A stretch of DNA of 64,000 nucleotides from a virus: positions 39,841-103,840 of the IMG/VR virus record IMGVR_UViG_3300005253_000017. The stretch is one strand, 5' to 3'. Under the pieces are notes generated by a model. That model saw nothing but the letters and a program-made list of their open reading frames with translations, had not been told where the DNA came from and did not search any database. A program made the translations under genes and the position numbers. Position 1 is the first letter of the stretch, and the number at the start of each line of letters is the position of its first letter. Positions 4,993-63,530 of the stretch are shown in pieces.

Positions 4993-5441
4993 TCGCTCTG
5001 TCCGGCTGTGACGGTGTAGAGAAGGATGCCTTTAAGGCCGATGTCAACGCCGAGATAAAGGCCAAGATTGCCTCACCTGAGTTCCAGGCGGCGTTGGCCA
5101 GGGATATCAAGGGCAAGATTGAGTTTCGGCTTGAGCAGGAACTGAAGCAATCCGTGGGACAGCAGACGGGCGGACTGAACATAGGGATGATAACTTTGGA
5201 CACATCCTGGCTGACTTGGCTGTCGCCGATTCTGTTCGGTCTGTTGGTATTCATCTGGTTGAGGAAGCGGAAGGCTATCAAGACGGTGGATATGCTAGTG
5301 AAGGGCATTGACGACGAAGCAATTGAAAGATTGGAAAGCCCTGCTCCTGCTAGAGAACGATTCCGTTCAATGGCCCTATCGAGAGGACTGGAAAAATTCC
5401 TGAGAAAGAGAATCAAGAAAGTACGAAAGTCCCGTCGTTGA
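4929..5441 (+). CDS. Lipoprotein with second transmembrane segment (170 aa)
   Basis: The N-terminal signal peptide ends in a lipobox ALSGC (Cys27). A charged helical stretch (33-78) follows, then a transmembrane segment at about 94-110 and a very basic C-terminus. AGGAGAAGG precedes the ATG. It is nested by 64 bases into the previous gene, like spanin gene pairs. A lipidated N-terminus plus an internal helix is unusual; a unimolecular spanin-like bridge is one reading. Confidence 0.55.
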   Translation: MGRTQTFIANSCLYVGLAVALVALSGCDGVEKDAFKADVNAEIKAKIASPEFQAALARDIKGKIEFRLEQELKQSVGQQTGGLNIGMITLDTSWLTWLSPILFGLLVFIWLRKRKAIKTVDMLVKGIDDEAIERLESPAPARERFRSMALSRGLEKFLRKRIKKVRKSRR

Positions 5442-5995
5442 TTACCTCATCGGGTATCCTATTTCCCTTAGAAGGATTCACCGAAGACGACGTGACGCTA
5501 GAGGACATCGCCTACCATCTATCTATGATAAGCAGATGGAACGGGGTAATACAAAAGCCGTTTTCCGTTCTGGAGCATTGTCTATACTGCGAGGAACTGG
5601 TGCGACATAGCTTTTATGGTGCATCCGTTACAACACGACTTTATGCTCTATTACACGATGCACACGAAGCATATACCGGAGATATCCATACCGCCCTCAA
5701 AAAGAAGTGCCCCTATATCGAGGAGTTTCAGCAACGGCTGGATATTGTCATTTACAAGAAATTCGGTATCGAACCCCCCGATAAGCTGATTCTGCCTACA
5801 ATTGAATGGGCGGACCGGAAGGCCAAGCTTGGAGAGGCATATCAATTCTTACCTCGTGGGGCGTACAAGGCAATTTTAGGCGATAAGAAACCCCCGGAAC
5901 TGTTGCCTATCGGGTGCTCATATGGTGACAAACGAGAGAAGGCCCGACAGAGGTATACTAACACATTGAAGGGGTTGCTTGGTGAGATTAAGTGA
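5438..5995 (+). CDS. HD-domain phosphohydrolase (YfbR-like)
   Basis: The 185-residue protein shows the HD-superfamily order of metal ligands: a His in SVLEHCLYCE near residue 48, then LLHDAHEAYTGDI (HD pair near 73-74) and a distal Asp in EWADRKAK. The N-terminal TLEDIAYHLSMISRWNG is typical of phage YfbR-like HD proteins, which dephosphorylate deoxynucleotides. With the nearby dCMP deaminase it probably tunes dNTP pools. The TTG start at 5438 overlaps the previous TGA. Confidence 0.78.
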   Translation: MITSSGILFPLEGFTEDDVTLEDIAYHLSMISRWNGVIQKPFSVLEHCLYCEELVRHSFYGASVTTRLYALLHDAHEAYTGDIHTALKKKCPYIEEFQQRLDIVIYKKFGIEPPDKLILPTIEWADRKAKLGEAYQFLPRGAYKAILGDKKPPELLPIGCSYGDKREKARQRYTNTLKGLLGEIK

Positions 5996-7293
5996 ACAAG
6001 AGTCTTCTTCTTCTCTGTCAAGAGGCTAAGGTTGAACCCCTTGGCTTGATGCATCTTGCGGCGGTATCGGAGGACGAGGGCTGGGATACGACAATTAAGC
6101 CAGTAGATTTCAATGAAGGATTTTATAGTGAGGATGTAGCATCTGATATTATAGGATTTTCTCTCTATACTGGAATTCACAAACGGGCATATCAATGGAT
6201 GGGTCGTCTTCGTGAGATTGGCCGAAGAGTTATCGTTGGCGGTCCTCATGCATCCTACTTTCCTAAGGAATGTGCTGAGCACGCCGACGTGGTAGTGGTC
6301 GGAAGGGGACAGGAACCCCTGAGACAAATCCTTAGCGGGAATATGAAGTCAAAGATTATCTGTGGTAACAATACAGAGCCCCTATCAATACCGTCAAGGA
6401 AGGGATTCTACGCCAACTATCCAGATTATAAGGCAAGCCCCATCAAGTCGATGATGGCAAGTCTGGGGTGTCCCTATAAATGTAGCTATTGTTACAATAG
6501 CATGAAGCGGATATTTCCTCACCGGTCCCGCGACGTTGGCGACCTCCTAGTAGAACTGGAACAACTGGAAAATCTGTCTCAGGAAACACAGCTTATCTAC
6601 TTCCAGGATGATGTATTTGGCATGGACCTGACTTGGCTTCAGGAATTTGCCGAGCGATGGTCATTCCCCTATCATGCCCAGACACGTATCGAATTCCTAG
6701 ACCCGCAGAAAGAATCCGCCCGCAAGAGGATAGCGTTATTGAAAAAGTCAGGATGTACCGGATTGACTGTGGCTATAGAGACGGCCAATGAGACAGTGCG
6801 CAAGGATGTTCTCGGTAGGACAATGACTAACGAAGCTTTCTTTCGGGCATTCGATTGGCTATCTATGCGGAACTTCAAGGTAAGAACGGAACAGATGCTG
6901 GGATTGCCGACGCCCGATCCACTGGAGACGGACCTAGATACTCTAAAAATGAACGTGGAACTAAGGAGAGAGACGGGTTTGCCGACAATGGCCTGGGCGT
7001 CGGTTTTCGTTCCCTACAAGGGCACAGAGATATGGCGATACTGTAAGGAGCACGGATACTATAATGGGGAGAACGATGACGCTCCGGCGAGCTTCTTTGA
7101 GAAATCAGTATTGAATTTCTCCGATGACTGCAAGGACCGCATGAAGTGGTTAGCCGATAATTTTCATCTTTTGGCATTGATTCCGAATGGCCACAAGGTA
7201 GCGAGACAAGCGGTGTATAATGATATGAAGGACTTGGCGAGTTTGACCAAGTATCACCTGTATGACTCGGAACTGTATGGAGTGAAGAAATGA
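5992..7293 (+). CDS. B12-binding-type radical SAM protein
   Basis: The 433-residue protein has an N-terminal cobalamin-binding-like Rossmann domain (about 1-115; VIVGGPHASYFP, VVVGRGQEP) and a radical SAM barrel with the CxxxCxxC iron-sulfur motif at Cys160, Cys164 and Cys167. This matches the class B methyltransferase/anaerobic-monooxygenase-like radical SAM group (MiaB/BchE-like domain order). No DxHxxG B12 loop is evident, so cobalamin binding may be lost. The GTG start overlaps the previous TGA. The substrate is unknown; it directly precedes the glycan operon and may modify a sugar or lipid. Confidence 0.82.
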   Translation: MNKSLLLLCQEAKVEPLGLMHLAAVSEDEGWDTTIKPVDFNEGFYSEDVASDIIGFSLYTGIHKRAYQWMGRLREIGRRVIVGGPHASYFPKECAEHADVVVVGRGQEPLRQILSGNMKSKIICGNNTEPLSIPSRKGFYANYPDYKASPIKSMMASLGCPYKCSYCYNSMKRIFPHRSRDVGDLLVELEQLENLSQETQLIYFQDDVFGMDLTWLQEFAERWSFPYHAQTRIEFLDPQKESARKRIALLKKSGCTGLTVAIETANETVRKDVLGRTMTNEAFFRAFDWLSMRNFKVRTEQMLGLPTPDPLETDLDTLKMNVELRRETGLPTMAWASVFVPYKGTEIWRYCKEHGYYNGENDDAPASFFEKSVLNFSDDCKDRMKWLADNFHLLALIPNGHKVARQAVYNDMKDLASLTKYHLYDSELYGVKK

Positions 7294-7574
7294 GCCATGA
7301 TAACCGATTGTGCCCGCGGTGCGAAGCCCTGGCCGTAATGTTCTCGGACCATGAGGTAAATAATACCACTGGTATGGGCCTGAGATGCGCGAACCGATGC
7401 GGTTGGATTTTGACTATGAAGGATGTTCAGAAACGATTAGACGACGCGATAGAATCTCTACGTTGGTTGGTACACTTGCATTCAGGAGTAAGTAAATCCG
7501 GAGGGAAGCCAAACAGCGATGAATGGGCAGAAGCCATTAGTGTAGCGTGTTCGGAATTAAACAGAGCGGAGTGA
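7290..7574 (+). CDS. Zinc-ribbon protein (94 aa)
   Basis: The N-terminus has two Cys pairs, CPRC (8-11) and a CANRCGW knuckle near 33-39, forming a probable zinc ribbon. The C-terminal half is helical (RLDDAIESLRWLV). It is coupled to the radical SAM gene by an ATGA overlap. The partner or substrate is unknown. Confidence 0.6.
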   Translation: MSHDNRLCPRCEALAVMFSDHEVNNTTGMGLRCANRCGWILTMKDVQKRLDDAIESLRWLVHLHSGVSKSGGKPNSDEWAEAISVACSELNRAE

Positions 7575-51687: not shown

Positions 51688-52281
51688 ATGGCGATATTTT
51701 GCATATCATGTGGGGCTGCTCTCAAAACGAAGAAAGCCAATCAGGTTTACTGCTCTTGTCGATGTCGGCCAAAAGGCTACCGTCTCGACGGACAGAGGAT
51801 AGAGCGAGTATGGACACAATCCGCTGAAACCAAGCGAAAGATTAGCATTTCCCTAAAGCGACGTTTCGCAACAACATGGCGAAAGGAAAATCCAAGGCCC
51901 TGGAATATCGAGGGAGAATATCCGGAAAACTGGAGTCTAATAGCCAGAGTCATCCGCAAACGGGACAAATACAAATGTCAGCTTTGCGGAAGGGCAAATA
52001 GCCACCATGTTCATCACATCAATGAGATCAAAACCGACAACTACCCAGAAAACCTTATCACCCTCTGTAAGATTTGCCATCTTACTAGATGTCATCGACA
52101 CGCCCACACAAAATGGACCATAGAAAAGACGACAAAAGAATGGGTCCGCCTCTGGAGTCGAAACCGGAACCGCTGGATAAGCCATTTCAGGATACTCATG
52201 TGGCAGCCAGAGATGAGGATTCTCAACGAGGCAGCAGACGAGGAGCTTACCTCTTTACAAACAAAGGACTTACAGGGATAA
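51688..52281 (+). CDS. HNH homing-type endonuclease (197 aa)
   Basis: An N-terminal zinc finger (CISCG ... CSCRC, residues 5-26) is followed by a NUMOD3-like basic segment (SAETKRKISISLKRR). The HNH core is CQLCG, HHVHHINEIKTD, then NLITLCKICH with a second zinc pair. A helical C-terminus follows. The protein would nick or cut DNA; its domains are typical of phage homing endonucleases. It has its own promoter and lies beside the apparent break in the protease/scaffold locus. Confidence 0.82.
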   Translation: MAIFCISCGAALKTKKANQVYCSCRCRPKGYRLDGQRIERVWTQSAETKRKISISLKRRFATTWRKENPRPWNIEGEYPENWSLIARVIRKRDKYKCQLCGRANSHHVHHINEIKTDNYPENLITLCKICHLTRCHRHAHTKWTIEKTTKEWVRLWSRNRNRWISHFRILMWQPEMRILNEAADEELTSLQTKDLQG

Positions 52282-52383
52282 AAAAATACTTCGTTTTTTC
52301 TTATTTTAGGGTTTACTTTTGGGATGGGGAACGTATAATGATAGTAGAGTGAAAATCGAATAGCCTACTTTTGAAGGAGACAA
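52278..52383 (+). repeat. Promoter-bearing direct repeat, copy 2
   Basis: Near copy of 24021-24124: an A-tract/T-tract start, GGTTTACTTTTGG, an identical stretch CGTATAATGATAGTAGAG through GTGAAAATCGAATA, and an AAGGAGACAA ribosome-binding site. It lies between the HNH gene and the second small-gene operon. Only the ~15 bases between the -35 and -10 and a few leader bases differ. Confidence 0.8.
52312..52339 (+). promoter_or_regulatory. Sigma70-type promoter for the second small-gene operon
   Basis: TTTACT (52312-52317) and TATAAT (52334-52339), 16 bases apart, match the promoter at 24054 almost exactly. It drives the + strand genes from 52387 on. Its conservation implies that both operons are switched on together. 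Confidence 0.75.
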
Positions 52384-52386
52384 GAA

Positions 52387-52641
52387 ATGGCAGACCTCAT
52401 CGACGGACAGTATTGCTTTTACGTTGACGAGACGATGTTCGTAGAAGGTAAGGGCTTTCGCCCAAGCATCATCGTTAAAGGTCAGCAGGGACACTTCCCC
52501 AACGTCGGCGCCGGTGTCAAGCCTTGGTATTGGGGAGAGGATATCAAGACTGCGAGAGCAATCACTGCTGGACGCAACAAACGATTAGGCCTCTCTCAAG
52601 CTGACGTTAACAAGCTCGTAGCAGAGTCCATGAGAACGTAA
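52387..52641 (+). CDS. Hypothetical protein (84 aa)
   Basis: A small mixed alpha/beta protein (GQYCFYVDETMFVEGKGF; a helical end NKLVAESMRT). GAAGGAGACAAGAA precedes the ATG. Its stop codon falls in the first stem of the structured RNA at 52639. The function is unknown. Confidence 0.6.
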   Translation: MADLIDGQYCFYVDETMFVEGKGFRPSIIVKGQQGHFPNVGAGVKPWYWGEDIKTARAITAGRNKRLGLSQADVNKLVAESMRT

Positions 52642-52721
52642 GCCGAAACCGGCCCACTCAGTAGTGGCGGTAGGAGTGTAAGTTGCGGGCCGGTCGTCGG
52701 AGGTTCGGTTCCTCCGGCTTG
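52639..52721 (+). ncRNA. Structured RNA with a T-arm-like hairpin (tRNA-like)
   Basis: Four nested pairings can be drawn. TAAGCC (52639-52644) pairs with GGCTTG (52716-52721). ACCGGCCC (52648-52655) pairs with GGGCCGGT (52687-52694). An inner ACTC pairs with GAGT. GGAGG and CCTCC (52699-52715) flank a TTCGGTT loop, stacked directly on the first stem as a T-arm stacks on an acceptor stem. The AGTAGTGGCGGTAG loop resembles a D-loop. No anticodon arm is recognised, so it is tRNA-like but not a normal tRNA. It fills the gap between two genes. Confidence 0.5.
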
Positions 52722-52755
52722 ACGAGGCAGCCGAAAACAGAAGAAGGAGACGATC

Positions 52756-53283
52756 ATGGGCGTCAGTACTCATATAACATTGCCAGCACAGGTGAGGGTA
52801 GGCGATGTCGCCAAGGTCATTGGCGCGTGCGTCGGGCTGAAGAAAAAGTGGCACGACCTTGGTAGAGGGCATAAATCGGTGGATGTCGTAGGCATCAAGG
52901 TCCTAAATACCTCTGTGCACAGCATGGTCAGAATCGTCTGGCAGAATGGGAAGGGCAATTCCCATCTAAAGTCCGGCGACTTGTATTATCATTTTGAGAC
53001 CGGCGACGAACGAAGCGGAAGGCTGCTCAGTTGTTCCTCCTGGGCACCATGGATCGCCCTAGGACGCAGGCTAGTAGACTTCTTCGGCGGGTCCATCGAC
53101 TACAACGACTGCGACTCAACCGATATTGACTATCAACAGAGGTGGAAAATCTGCCTCTGTCTTGCCGACGATGATGAAGAGTGGGATGACCTCCAAGAAC
53201 GTATCATGAAAGTCAAGCCCATCACTGAGGCTGAAATCCTTGCAGCTGACAGGGACGCTTCATATCCCTTAGAATCCAGATAG
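52756..53283 (+). CDS. Hypothetical protein (175 aa)
   Basis: A mixed alpha/beta protein with an N-terminal MGVSTHITLPAQVRVGDVAK region and an acidic C-terminal half (DDDEEWDDLQERIM). The leader AAGGAGACGATC is identical to that of the gene at 26830. The family is unknown. It is the largest gene of the second small-gene operon. Confidence 0.6.
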   Translation: MGVSTHITLPAQVRVGDVAKVIGACVGLKKKWHDLGRGHKSVDVVGIKVLNTSVHSMVRIVWQNGKGNSHLKSGDLYYHFETGDERSGRLLSCSSWAPWIALGRRLVDFFGGSIDYNDCDSTDIDYQQRWKICLCLADDDEEWDDLQERIMKVKPITEAEILAADRDASYPLESR

Positions 53284-55927: not shown

Positions 55928-56533
55928 TTACAGACCTTCCAAGTATCCATTTAACATGAGCCTACTGACAAACACGAAATGTCCGGCAATAGGCGGGCTC
56001 ATCGCCCGCACCATGCCGATTAATTCATAATTTTCATTGTATACACCGCCGCCTGAGGAGCCGAAATGAACATGATTGGTCAATATCCCCATGCCCCACA
56101 TCTCTCCTCCCATTATCCCGTTCGACAGGAAGAACCTATTGCCAGGATAGCCTGACACCCACAGGGGATTGCCAAGACTGGGGAGACTGTTGCCCACCTT
56201 AACAGAGCGGAACTGACAGTCGTTCATTATCACCCGAACAATGGCAATATCCTCCCCGGAGTCGGTGAGCACGACTTCCCCTAACAGCATTTGGTGATCG
56301 GTTATCGCCCCTATGTGGTGACGATTGTAAAAGGTGATATTAACATACTCATTATCCAGTACCACGTGCTGGGCCGTCAGGATATACACCTCGTCCAGCG
56401 GGCCTTGGTTCACCCTCACAATCGTCCCCGAACCCTTGTCGTCTATCAACACGGTAGACTGGGCTATGTCCACAAAAGAATTCCCACACCCAATTAGTAG
56501 GACTGGGAACAGCAGAAACAAAAACTTTTTCAT
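55928..56533 (-). CDS. Lipoprotein trypsin-like serine protease (201 aa)
   Basis: The N-terminus is a lipoprotein signal peptide ending in LIGC (Cys16). The triad is complete: His56 in TAQHVV, Asp95 in EDIAIVR and Ser160 in FGSSGGGVY. Strands follow the two-barrel trypsin/DegP pattern. It should be a membrane-anchored, periplasm-facing or surface-exposed protease in the infected cell. It is coupled to the next gene by ATGA. Phage lipoprotein proteases of this type are not something I can name. Confidence 0.82.
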   Translation of the reverse strand: MKKFLFLLFPVLLIGCGNSFVDIAQSTVLIDDKGSGTIVRVNQGPLDEVYILTAQHVVLDNEYVNITFYNRHHIGAITDHQMLLGEVVLTDSGEDIAIVRVIMNDCQFRSVKVGNSLPSLGNPLWVSGYPGNRFFLSNGIMGGEMWGMGILTNHVHFGSSGGGVYNENYELIGMVRAMSPPIAGHFVFVSRLMLNGYLEGL

Positions 56534-59864: not shown

Positions 59865-60749
59865 TTATACCCCATCCAGCTTGCTCTCCAGCCTTCGCCT
59901 AAACATATTTGCGGCCAAGCTCCCTATCGCTTTCCTGGCAGGCTTATCGATAACAGCTTCATCCTTAGACTCCTTCAACACATCATCCACCATTGCCCGT
60001 ATGACCTCCCCAGTATGCTCCACACCCTTCTCACCAACCATACTGCCCAATACGTGGGACAGGCGCATCTCAGTCACCCATTCCTCGGCTATCTCGTTGG
60101 CCTCAGTCAATACCTTCAACTTAGCGGAGTCTGTGACCTTCCTGGGGGTAACTGTTTCCTTGAACTCGTCTGACTTGTGCTTGGCGATTATCCTCTTACC
60201 ATTGTTCTTTCTAACCTCTATCAGGGGCCGAAGGACAATGCCTTCTCTTCGCTTATCCATCTTTCCAAGATTACGCCCCGCCTGGACAGAGAAAGCACCC
60301 CTCAGGCTATTTAAGACTTCAATATCGGTAGAAACTCTCGCATAATGAACGAACTCCAGATTCAACTGCAGGGCAACATCGGCAGCCTGTGGAACGGACA
60401 ACCACATATCGCCAATCTTGACCTCGAACACGATGAACTTTATCTGGTCGCCATAGGTCTCTTGCATACCCTGAATCTTGCCGCCGTACGCCTCACCGAA
60501 CACGACAACTTCAGGCAGACCGAGGGCCTCGAACCTCTTTTCCAGATCGTCCTGGTCAAACAGACTTATGAAAGTTTCATGTTTACATCCACCAGCGAAG
60601 AAGGAAAGAGGGGACGGAGAGATAATACCTCTTACTTCCTTCCAACTAATATGAGCCGACGTACCGTGAATCTTCTCTAAAGCGTAGCACTCCCGGAACA
60701 GCAGAATATCTTGATTCTTGTACAGGTTGTCAATATTCATATAGCTCAT
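59865..60749 (-). CDS. RNA ligase (Rnl2-like)
   Basis: The 294-residue protein has the nucleotidyltransferase motifs of the Rnl2 group: motif I KIHG (Lys26 would be adenylylated), VVFGEAYGGKIQG (motif III region), EGIVLRPL (motif IV) and IAKHKSDEF (motif V). The C-terminal part is helical. The start at 60749 is supported by GAAGGAG 7 bases upstream. Phage RNA ligases reseal host tRNAs cut by anticodon nucleases or join nicked RNA; two tRNA genes lie within 1.5 kb. Confidence 0.85.
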   Translation of the reverse strand: MSYMNIDNLYKNQDILLFRECYALEKIHGTSAHISWKEVRGIISPSPLSFFAGGCKHETFISLFDQDDLEKRFEALGLPEVVVFGEAYGGKIQGMQETYGDQIKFIVFEVKIGDMWLSVPQAADVALQLNLEFVHYARVSTDIEVLNSLRGAFSVQAGRNLGKMDKRREGIVLRPLIEVRKNNGKRIIAKHKSDEFKETVTPRKVTDSAKLKVLTEANEIAEEWVTEMRLSHVLGSMVGEKGVEHTGEVIRAMVDDVLKESKDEAVIDKPARKAIGSLAANMFRRRLESKLDGV

Positions 60750-60750
60750 A

Positions 60751-60933
60751 TCAGTCTCCTTCAACCATCCCACCCAGCAAATCCTCTATGTACTGTGGAC
60801 TCATGTGCTCCCTCAACCATATTGTACCCTCTGGCAATCCCTCACCGTATTCGATACGGTACATTTGCCAAGATTCCATGCCCTTCGGGGGATTGTTCAT
60901 CAGCATCTCAATGAGTCGGGGTTTAATGGTCAT
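60751..60933 (-). CDS. Hypothetical protein (60 aa)
   Basis: A small helical protein with a Trp/Tyr segment (ESWQMYRIEYGEGLPEGTI). It ends 2 bases before the RNA ligase start and overlaps the upstream gene. The function is unknown. Confidence 0.5.
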   Translation of the reverse strand: MTIKPRLIEMLMNNPPKGMESWQMYRIEYGEGLPEGTIWLREHMSPQYIEDLLGGMVEGD

Positions 60934-62245: not shown

Positions 62246-62319
62246 TAGTCAAGACGGGAGTCGAACCCGATATTTCAGGCTTATAAGGCCAGCGTGGTTT
62301 TCCGTTCCACTCCTCGGCA
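62246..62319 (-). tRNA. Degenerate tRNA-Ile (UAU anticodon)
   Basis: D-arm GTGG-AACGGAAAA-CCAC, an anticodon stem-loop CTGGC-CTTATAA-GCCTG (anticodon UAU) and a T-arm with loop TTCGACT are all in place with correct spacing. The acceptor (TGCCGAG/CTTGACT) has two mismatches, and one mismatch each is found in the anticodon and T stems. U8 is absent. So it is a tRNA, but possibly decayed or divergent. UAU would read the rare Ile codon AUA. Confidence 0.5.
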
Positions 62320-62333
62320 ATGTCTTCACTTCA

Positions 62334-63530
62334 TTATACACCGACCATCTCGTATTGCCCGCAAATTCCTTCGATCATCGTTGCCAGCACATCGGCGTTC
62401 TTCTGTCCGAGCAGGGGCTTCCACATGCAGCCGGGCTGGTCTCCGGCAGCAATCGCCTGGAGGAGAGGAGTGAAGGCTTGGGGTCTCCCCCTAGTATTAA
62501 AACTAGTATGGCAAGACGAACAAAACGCAATAAGATTGCTTGGATTACTGTTCATTTTGTCCTCATCAATGTGATGAACGTCTAGATTCTTCCCGTTCTT
62601 CTCTGCGGATTTCCCACAAAGTTGACAAACATGGTTATCACGATCACGAATGCTTTGCTTGAGATCAGATGTCCATTTAAGGGAATATGGTTCAAAGGAC
62701 GAACCTCCCTTCCAATTATAATGATTCTGTCCACTTATTTTACGTCTAGCTTCAGCTGATTTTTTAATCCCCTTATGAGATTCACTCATTTTACATTTCG
62801 TTTCCTCTGAATGCTTTTTGCCATAATTAGGATTTCTTTCCCCGGAATTTATCTCACTCAACTTTTGTAGCGTTTCTAGGGAAGGCCTAACGCCCCTATG
62901 CGATTCACTCAATTTTCGCCTTTCTTCGGGGTCTTCATAACGTCCTGTTTGAGATTCACTCTGCTTATTACAAATCTTTCGGCTAAAAAGAGACACATTA
63001 GGATATCGCCTCCTATATTCAGCCATTGTTATGTTATGCGTCTTTAGATGAAAACCAGTAAGCACCTGAAAACGCTTATCACACTCTCGACAAACAACAT
63101 AGTCCTCCCCCTCTATCAATCCGCTAACATACAAATCTTCCTTTGGAGGGCAAAGTTTTAATCCCCTCTCCAAACAAGATTTCCTTTGTGCTTCACACAT
63201 TTTGTGTAAAGTTTCCGGGGAGTGTTTACGCCCCGCAGACTTCCTGCCTATTTTACGTTTAGTTTCTTCAGAATGTTTGTACCCCTTCATCGATGCAAGC
63301 CACTTGCTTATCCATTCGGGAGAACGTTCGCGGCCGCTGTTTGCTTTGCTCCGTTTATCATGACTATTTTGACTGACAATCAATGCGCCAAGATGAAGCT
63401 TCAAATAACTATCCTTTGTCATATGATGTATCTGCGTCAGATGCATGCCAAGTTCTTTCTGCCTTCTCCCACACACCTGACAAACTACATAATCAATGCC
63501 TTCCACCTTTTCAAAAAAGGACCACATCAT
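62334..63530 (-). CDS. HNH homing-type endonuclease with two zinc-finger and NUMOD-like repeats (398 aa)
   Basis: Two MucR/Ros-like zinc fingers (CQVC...HLTQIH at 17-35; CREC...HLKTHN near 147-165) alternate with several NUMOD3-like basic repeats (KHSEETKRKIG, KHSPETLHKMC, KHSEETKCKMS). The C-terminal HNH core is CQLCGKS, DVHHIDEDK and NLIAFCSSCH. It would bind a DNA target and nick or cut it. The gene begins at the stop of the protease half (TGATG), at the edge of the accessory block. Confidence 0.85.
   Translation of the reverse strand: MMWSFFEKVEGIDYVVCQVCGRRQKELGMHLTQIHHMTKDSYLKLHLGALIVSQNSHDKRSKANSGRERSPEWISKWLASMKGYKHSEETKRKIGRKSAGRKHSPETLHKMCEAQRKSCLERGLKLCPPKEDLYVSGLIEGEDYVVCRECDKRFQVLTGFHLKTHNITMAEYRRRYPNVSLFSRKICNKQSESQTGRYEDPEERRKLSESHRGVRPSLETLQKLSEINSGERNPNYGKKHSEETKCKMSESHKGIKKSAEARRKISGQNHYNWKGGSSFEPYSLKWTSDLKQSIRDRDNHVCQLCGKSAEKNGKNLDVHHIDEDKMNSNPSNLIAFCSSCHTSFNTRGRPQAFTPLLQAIAAGDQPGCMWKPLLGQKNADVLATMIEGICGQYEMVGV

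Follow-up and report, generated by a model that had tools for sequence, protein, structure and literature searches.

A probable pseudoknotted type II hammerhead ribozyme with a variant core between two genes of an uncultured phage

Identification of the element

The 114-base gap between two adjacent genes of an uncultured phage contains a real structured RNA (52641-52736, + strand), a new copy of a published ribozyme class. By identity the element is very likely a type II hammerhead. Its role would probably be to cut the transcript after C52695 and so to separate the mRNA of the two genes, with cleavage by this copy being uncertain. All coordinates refer to the window, i.e., the complete stretch of 64,000 bases that was analyzed; it occupies positions 39,841-103,840 in an uncultured virus record that is 103,840 bases long. 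The site had earlier been described, in a sequence-only reading, as a tRNA-like RNA lacking an anticodon arm, for which a tRNA relic, a decoy for tRNA enzymes and a processing signal were offered as explanations; only the last of these fits the results presented here.

The assignment comes from an Rfam search with all families inside the window and with RF02276 over the entire record. It recovered Hammerhead_II (RF02276) at 52641-52736 (+) with 41 bits, above the gathering score of 37, and with E-values of 6.3e-5 over the window and 6.9e-7 with 701 bases searched. The match covers model positions 1-66 and is the only one to this family in the 103,840-base record, even at E-values up to 10. A covariance-model search had been proposed as a check on the tRNA-like reading; it did return a family, although this was RF02276 and neither ARAGORN nor Rfam called a tRNA at the site. 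No match to the type I hammerhead was seen in the record, a search in which the positive controls were silent as well. A structural scan requiring the GAAA core and at least 5, 4 and 2 bp in stems III, I and II, respectively, gave a single match in the window, as against none in 30 dinucleotide-shuffled windows.

The defining features of the family are present with one exception. Stems I and III are closed by loops and stem II is open, with 8, 8 and 3 bp in stems I, III and II; the GAAA motif (52645-52648), the A15.1-U16.1 pair (U at 52694) and the H17 nucleotide (C52695) are all in place. The core segment corresponding to CUGANGA reads UUGACGA, which agrees at six of the seven positions and differs at base 3. 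Loop I and the 3' tail can form a pseudoknot of seven pairs, one of them G-U, a feature of most but not all members of the family.

The class, its pseudoknot and its arrays in prophages were described for bacteria and phages by Perreault et al. (2011, PMC3088659). The window copy resembles these type II hammerheads in the open and short stem II, the GAAA and UGANGA parts of the core, the A15.1-U16.1 pair, C17, the pairing of loop I with the 3' tail and the position between phage genes. It differs in having U3, a 31-nt insert on stem III and a single copy in place of the arrays of many relatives.

Genomic context

The gap extends from the TAA at 52639-52641 to the ATG at 52756 and occupies 52642-52755, in agreement with the earlier description. 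Both flanking genes lie on the + strand:

52312-52339, +: sigma-70-like promoter, TTTACT, 16 nt, TATAAT (by consensus scan alone, with 10 of 12 positions matching)
52387-52641, +: upstream gene, 84 aa, weak PHROG match without assigned function; its TAA stop (52639-52641) directly adjoins the ribozyme
52744-52749, +: Shine-Dalgarno sequence AAGGAG of the downstream gene
52756-53283, +: downstream gene, 175 aa, no match in Pfam, PHROG or NCBIfam
7215, 14511, 18992, 19614, 20084, 24075, 51663 and 52333, +: near-copies of GTATAATGATA

The promoter-like sequence stands ahead of the unit containing the ribozyme and includes GTATAATGATA at 52333-52343. With at most one mismatch, this sequence occurs eight times in the window, always on the + strand, where shuffled sequences lead one to expect 0.82 copies; it is probably a conserved phage promoter element. 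Given this upstream sequence and the position between the genes, the ribozyme most likely lies within one transcript carrying both of them. No intrinsic terminator is predicted at the gap.

DNA similarity searches of 52200-53000 against phages gave no match, and a search of viral contigs for relatives of the upstream gene, the downstream gene and the capsid gene gave none. By tblastn, the phage matches to the capsid and the exonuclease are all distant (23.8-27.5% identity among the matches listed; below 60% in all places).

Several neighboring genes were recorded in passing. Two genes resembling HNH or group I intron endonucleases, possibly homing endonucleases, lie at 51688-52281 (+) and 62334-63530 (-), the former directly upstream of the transcription unit of the ribozyme. 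A gene at 55928-56533 (-) shows weak matches to HtrA-like serine proteases.

Anatomy and folding

The alignment to the Rfam model, together with the scan, resolves the element into the following parts:

52642-52644, +: stem II 5' strand, GCC (11.3-11.1), Rfam alignment
52645-52647, +: core G12 A13 A14 (of GAAA), Rfam alignment
52648-52655, +: stem III 5' strand, first base A15.1, Rfam alignment
52656-52686, +: 31-nt insert closing stem III, with weak structure of its own (-1.4 kcal/mol)
52687-52694, +: stem III 3' strand, last base U16.1, Rfam alignment
52695-52696, +: predicted cleavage site between C17 (52695) and G1.1 (52696), by hammerhead convention
52696-52703, +: stem I 5' strand, Rfam alignment
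52704-52710, +: loop I, UUCGGUU, 5' partner of the pseudoknot
52711-52718, +: stem I 3' strand, Rfam alignment
52719-52725, +: core positions 3-9, UUGACGA (consensus CUGANGA), Rfam alignment and scan
52726-52728, +: stem II 3' strand, GGC
52729-52735, +: 3' tail, AGCCGAA, partner of loop I in seven pairs including one G-U

This anatomy accounts for much of what had been noticed earlier under other names. The 8-bp stem described in place of an anticodon arm is present as helix III (52648-52655/52687-52694). The supposed T-arm, GGAGG-UUCGGUU-CCUCC, likewise exists, although it constitutes only the upper 5 bp, with the 7-nt loop, of a helix I that is 8 bp long (52696-52703/52711-52718). The element does lie at the proposed 52639-52721, but reaches on to about 52735.

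Without the pseudoknot, the nested hammerhead helices amount to -32.7 kcal/mol as compared with -29.3 kcal/mol for the tRNA-like fold. For the 94-nt prefix, the hammerhead is the structure of minimum free energy (-35.2 kcal/mol, counting pairs inside the stem III insert), whereas the full-length element adopts yet another one at its minimum (-37.7 kcal/mol), with loop I paired to the tail at the expense of stems I and II. Relative to the background, the folding energy is unremarkable (z -0.38), and by itself is insufficient to reveal the element.

In comparative terms, the hammerhead described by Zhan et al. (2024, PMC11300833) is compact and contains a pseudoknot, with G8 and G12 in its active site; it differs in being a designed construct with a G8-C3 pair, whereas the window copy has U3 and a predicted pseudoknot. 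The pistol ribozyme, compared alongside it, has a different core.

Relatives in viral contigs

Two scans of IMG/VR were used to collect relatives. The core-pattern scan, which allowed a gap of up to 50 in stem III and any base at position 3 and fixed the tail as CAGCC for the seed match of each locus, yielded 61 stretches. The U3-directed scan yielded 27 and limited the stem III gap to at most 38, so that the window copy itself lies outside its pattern. Together they led to 82 viral loci, 35 of which contain 134 matches to the structural scan, 94 of them distinct; one of these loci, L046, was counted twice at a single site, the matches at 6910 and 6948 having a common 3' half. The 35 loci fall into 18 homology groups, the largest with 18 loci. 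Two or more distinct copies, up to a maximum of eight and always on a single strand within a locus, are present in 19 of the 35. Independently of the structural scan, Rfam applied to eight of these loci returned 42 Hammerhead_II matches, none of them in L016, one of the eight. A scan of genome contigs gave at least 120 stretches, and among those listed two of 120 hold a structural-scan match, both with C3. The pairs in stems I-III differ widely between relatives with pairing kept, a covariation that is purely descriptive since the stems themselves were selection criteria of the scan.

Multicopy loci stand out in this collection. L050, L017, L005, L046 and L039 each carry up to eight type II hammerheads by the scan, on one strand and between genes (Rfam finds 10 matches in L039), and are good systems for studying the mRNA-cutting role. 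Separately, five hammerhead-like matches of the structural scan on the - strand of L016 (scan indices 5179-7525), with loop CCGGG able to pair with tail CCCGG, were not called by Rfam at the gathering score; perhaps they represent a divergent type II subgroup.

Unlike the stems, the pseudoknot was no criterion in the structural scan. The 7-bp version in the window is longer than most pseudoknots of its relatives, which carry different loop sequences with correspondingly different tails. In the 39 copies whose tail lacks AGCC, the pairing between loop I and tail averages 4.85, as compared with 3.69 when partners are swapped and with a maximum of 4.21 in 500 permutations. When one copy is taken per homology group, the real mean is reached by 88 of 4000 permutations, a moderate group-level signal.

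Placement between genes

The family match, the anatomy and the pseudoknot complementarity are accompanied by a position between genes which the window copy has in common with its relatives. Measured on mechanical open frames rather than curated genes, 32 of the 94 relatives have an upstream stop codon whose end lies 0-10 nt ahead of C11.1 (3.3% of 4700 random positions), and a start codon with a Shine-Dalgarno sequence follows 15-40 nt past A9 in 64 of the 94 (10.8% at random). This start-codon spacing is seen in at least one copy for 13 of the 18 homology groups. In the window copy, the stop lies 3 nt before C11.1 and the ATG 31 nt past A9. Further, the predicted cleavage site falls inside a same-strand open frame of at least 100 codons in 51 of the 94 relatives, as against 88.9% of random positions; hence, open frames do pass through many copies. 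The outcome is a quantified placement rule, whereby phage type II hammerheads come after a stop codon and the next start follows about 28 nt past the core, and this rule supports an mRNA-cutting role.

A uridine at core position 3

The exception noted above is base 3 of the core (52719), which is U and not C. All 94 distinct relatives have C3, the core reading CUGAUGA in 75, CUGACGA in 12, CUGAAGA in six and CUGAGGA in one, and no second credible U3 hammerhead was found among the 27 stretches of the U3-directed scan. A position 3 other than C was seen in four rows across 83 loci and the window: the window, its own copy (L001), L065 and L070. The last two have long loops and stems no longer than the minimum (4, 4 and 2 bp), and were rejected as chance matches.

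The substitution touches the active site. According to PMC11300833, the partner of C3 is G8, and the 2'-OH of G8 is the general acid. Natural U3-A8 covariants are reported in PMC3088659, yet position 8 of the window copy is still G despite U3. A U3 facing G8 would place a wobble in the active site, and the ribozyme may consequently be slow or dead; the cleavage activity of the window copy is therefore uncertain. Since natural hammerheads with variant cores do exist (PMC3088659), U3 counts less against descent from the class than against activity.

One reading of these data, although an unlikely one, is that the window copy is a decayed type II hammerhead, in which U3 disabled a once-active ribozyme and left it as a passive intergenic hairpin. 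The contrast with the C3 of all 94 distinct relatives favors such decay, as does its occurrence as a single copy in the record when 19 of the 35 relative loci have two or more distinct ones. However, the remaining core bases, the three helices and the 7-bp pseudoknot are intact, which argues against a long-dead copy, as this would be expected to show more damage. Additionally, the combination of U3 with U4 G5 A6 C7 G8 A9 is on record in a halophile variant, though there it follows two inserted bases (PMC7151607). By elimination this is HHphage of the haloviruses HF1 and HF2, for which the end or start of a transcript maps at most 3 nt from the cleavage site, according to PMC3088659. HHphage has the same positions 3-9 as the window copy and similarly lies upstream of a phage gene; it differs in the extra bases 2a and 2b before position 3 and in belonging to haloarchaeal viruses, while stem I of the window copy is paired up to position 3.

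A core with U3 may therefore still be functional, at a low rate or under particular conditions, or the copy may be in decay. It is a rather remote prospect, at present, that the element is a natural hammerhead with a U3-G8 wobble and no inserted bases which is active yet slow or conditional, and which would time the separation of the two phage genes. In such a case, the timing would come from the weakened core, with the strong pseudoknot and the 31-nt stem III insert as a possible sensing domain; triggers could include temperature, a metal ion, the binding of a factor, or ribosomes terminating at the stop codon, which touches stem II.

Alternative interpretations of the structure

A regulatory hairpin, stabilizing mRNA or resembling a terminator, without self-cleavage and with an accidental match to the hammerhead model, is very improbable. 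GC-rich hairpins are common between genes and the minimum free energy fold of the full-length element differs from the hammerhead, both of which would agree with such a hairpin. Against it, there is no predicted intrinsic terminator at the site, and the Rfam E-value and the shuffle control make it unlikely that a hammerhead with a matching pseudoknot and the gene-junction position of its class arose by accident.

The tRNA-like RNA, whether relic, decoy or RNase P substrate, is largely refuted and scarcely credible: its appeal lies in a 6-bp stem, UAAGCC/GGCUUG, in which the stop codon can indeed pair as the sequence-only reading had proposed, right after a hairpin of 5 bp whose 7-nt loop reads UUCGGUU, but this supposed acceptor stem joins the stem II 5' strand to the foot of stem I and competes with two hammerhead helices in a weaker fold, no tRNA match occurs at the site (by ARAGORN, or by Rfam at E-values up to 1 on the local stretch), and the hammerhead model matches end to end. 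The likeness to tRNA (RF00005) is superficial and goes no further than a 6-bp stem with a hairpin of 7-nt loop stacked on it. There is no anticodon hairpin and no cloverleaf with anticodon and D arms, the alternative fold is the weaker one, and its helices are incompatible with those of the hammerhead, for which the support is better. That UUCGGUU looks like a T-loop is explained by the complementarity of the loop to the 3' tail AGCCGAA, and its T-loop letters are not common to the relatives.

The two tRNA matches in the window both lie away from the hammerhead site. One of them, at 62246-62319 (-), is an Rfam match of 38.1 bits without an ARAGORN call; its anticodon loop, read by eye, is CTTATAA and the anticodon would be UAU.

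Proposed role in mRNA processing

The type II hammerhead thus remains the preferred reading, and an mRNA-cutting function is likely for the class and uncertain for the window copy. Phage hammerheads have been proposed to process long transcripts into shorter mRNAs, and three tandem arrangements from bacterial genomes were cut during in vitro transcription, that of A. tumefaciens also in E. coli (Perreault et al. 2011, PMC3088659).

In the proposed course of events, stem III would form first behind the RNA polymerase, followed by stem I and then by the 3-bp stem II together with the pseudoknot of loop I and tail. Self-cleavage would then occur after C52695, between 52695 and 52696. The upstream mRNA product would terminate soon past the stop codon, with the stem III hairpin as its last structure and a 2',3'-cyclic phosphate at its end. 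The downstream product would carry a 5'-OH and start with the stem I hairpin, which may retain its pseudoknot, ahead of the Shine-Dalgarno sequence and the ATG. One transcript would be split in this way into two gene messages, both of whose new ends could be protected. Unlike types I and III, type II leaves each product end with a hairpin of its own, which may provide that protection. Self-cleavage, the rate that U3 would allow and possible effects on mRNA stability or translation are all predictions. Further, as the stem II 5' strand directly follows the stop codon, a terminating ribosome would cover it, and cleavage may be coupled to translation.

The possibility that a phage ligase re-ligates or circularizes the cleaved RNA was also considered and rejected. 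The window encodes an Rnl2-like RNA ligase at 59865-60773 (-), matching PF09414 and phrog_548, with TIGR02307 below its cut-off. Ligases of the Rnl2 type join a 5'-phosphate to a 3'-OH, unlike the ends left by a hammerhead. No RtcB was found in the record, and the one weak match to a kinase-containing family falls in an open frame that reads by eye as a clamp-loader-like ATPase. Together, these points give no support to such re-ligation.

With this finding, an enigmatic "tRNA-like" RNA becomes a concrete, testable ribozyme for which cleavage is predicted at a single phosphate. For the family, the placement suggests a reason for the type II permutation, namely that a hairpin is left at both new ends. 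Finally, should the U3 core prove active, the hammerhead active site would be more tolerant than is known so far.
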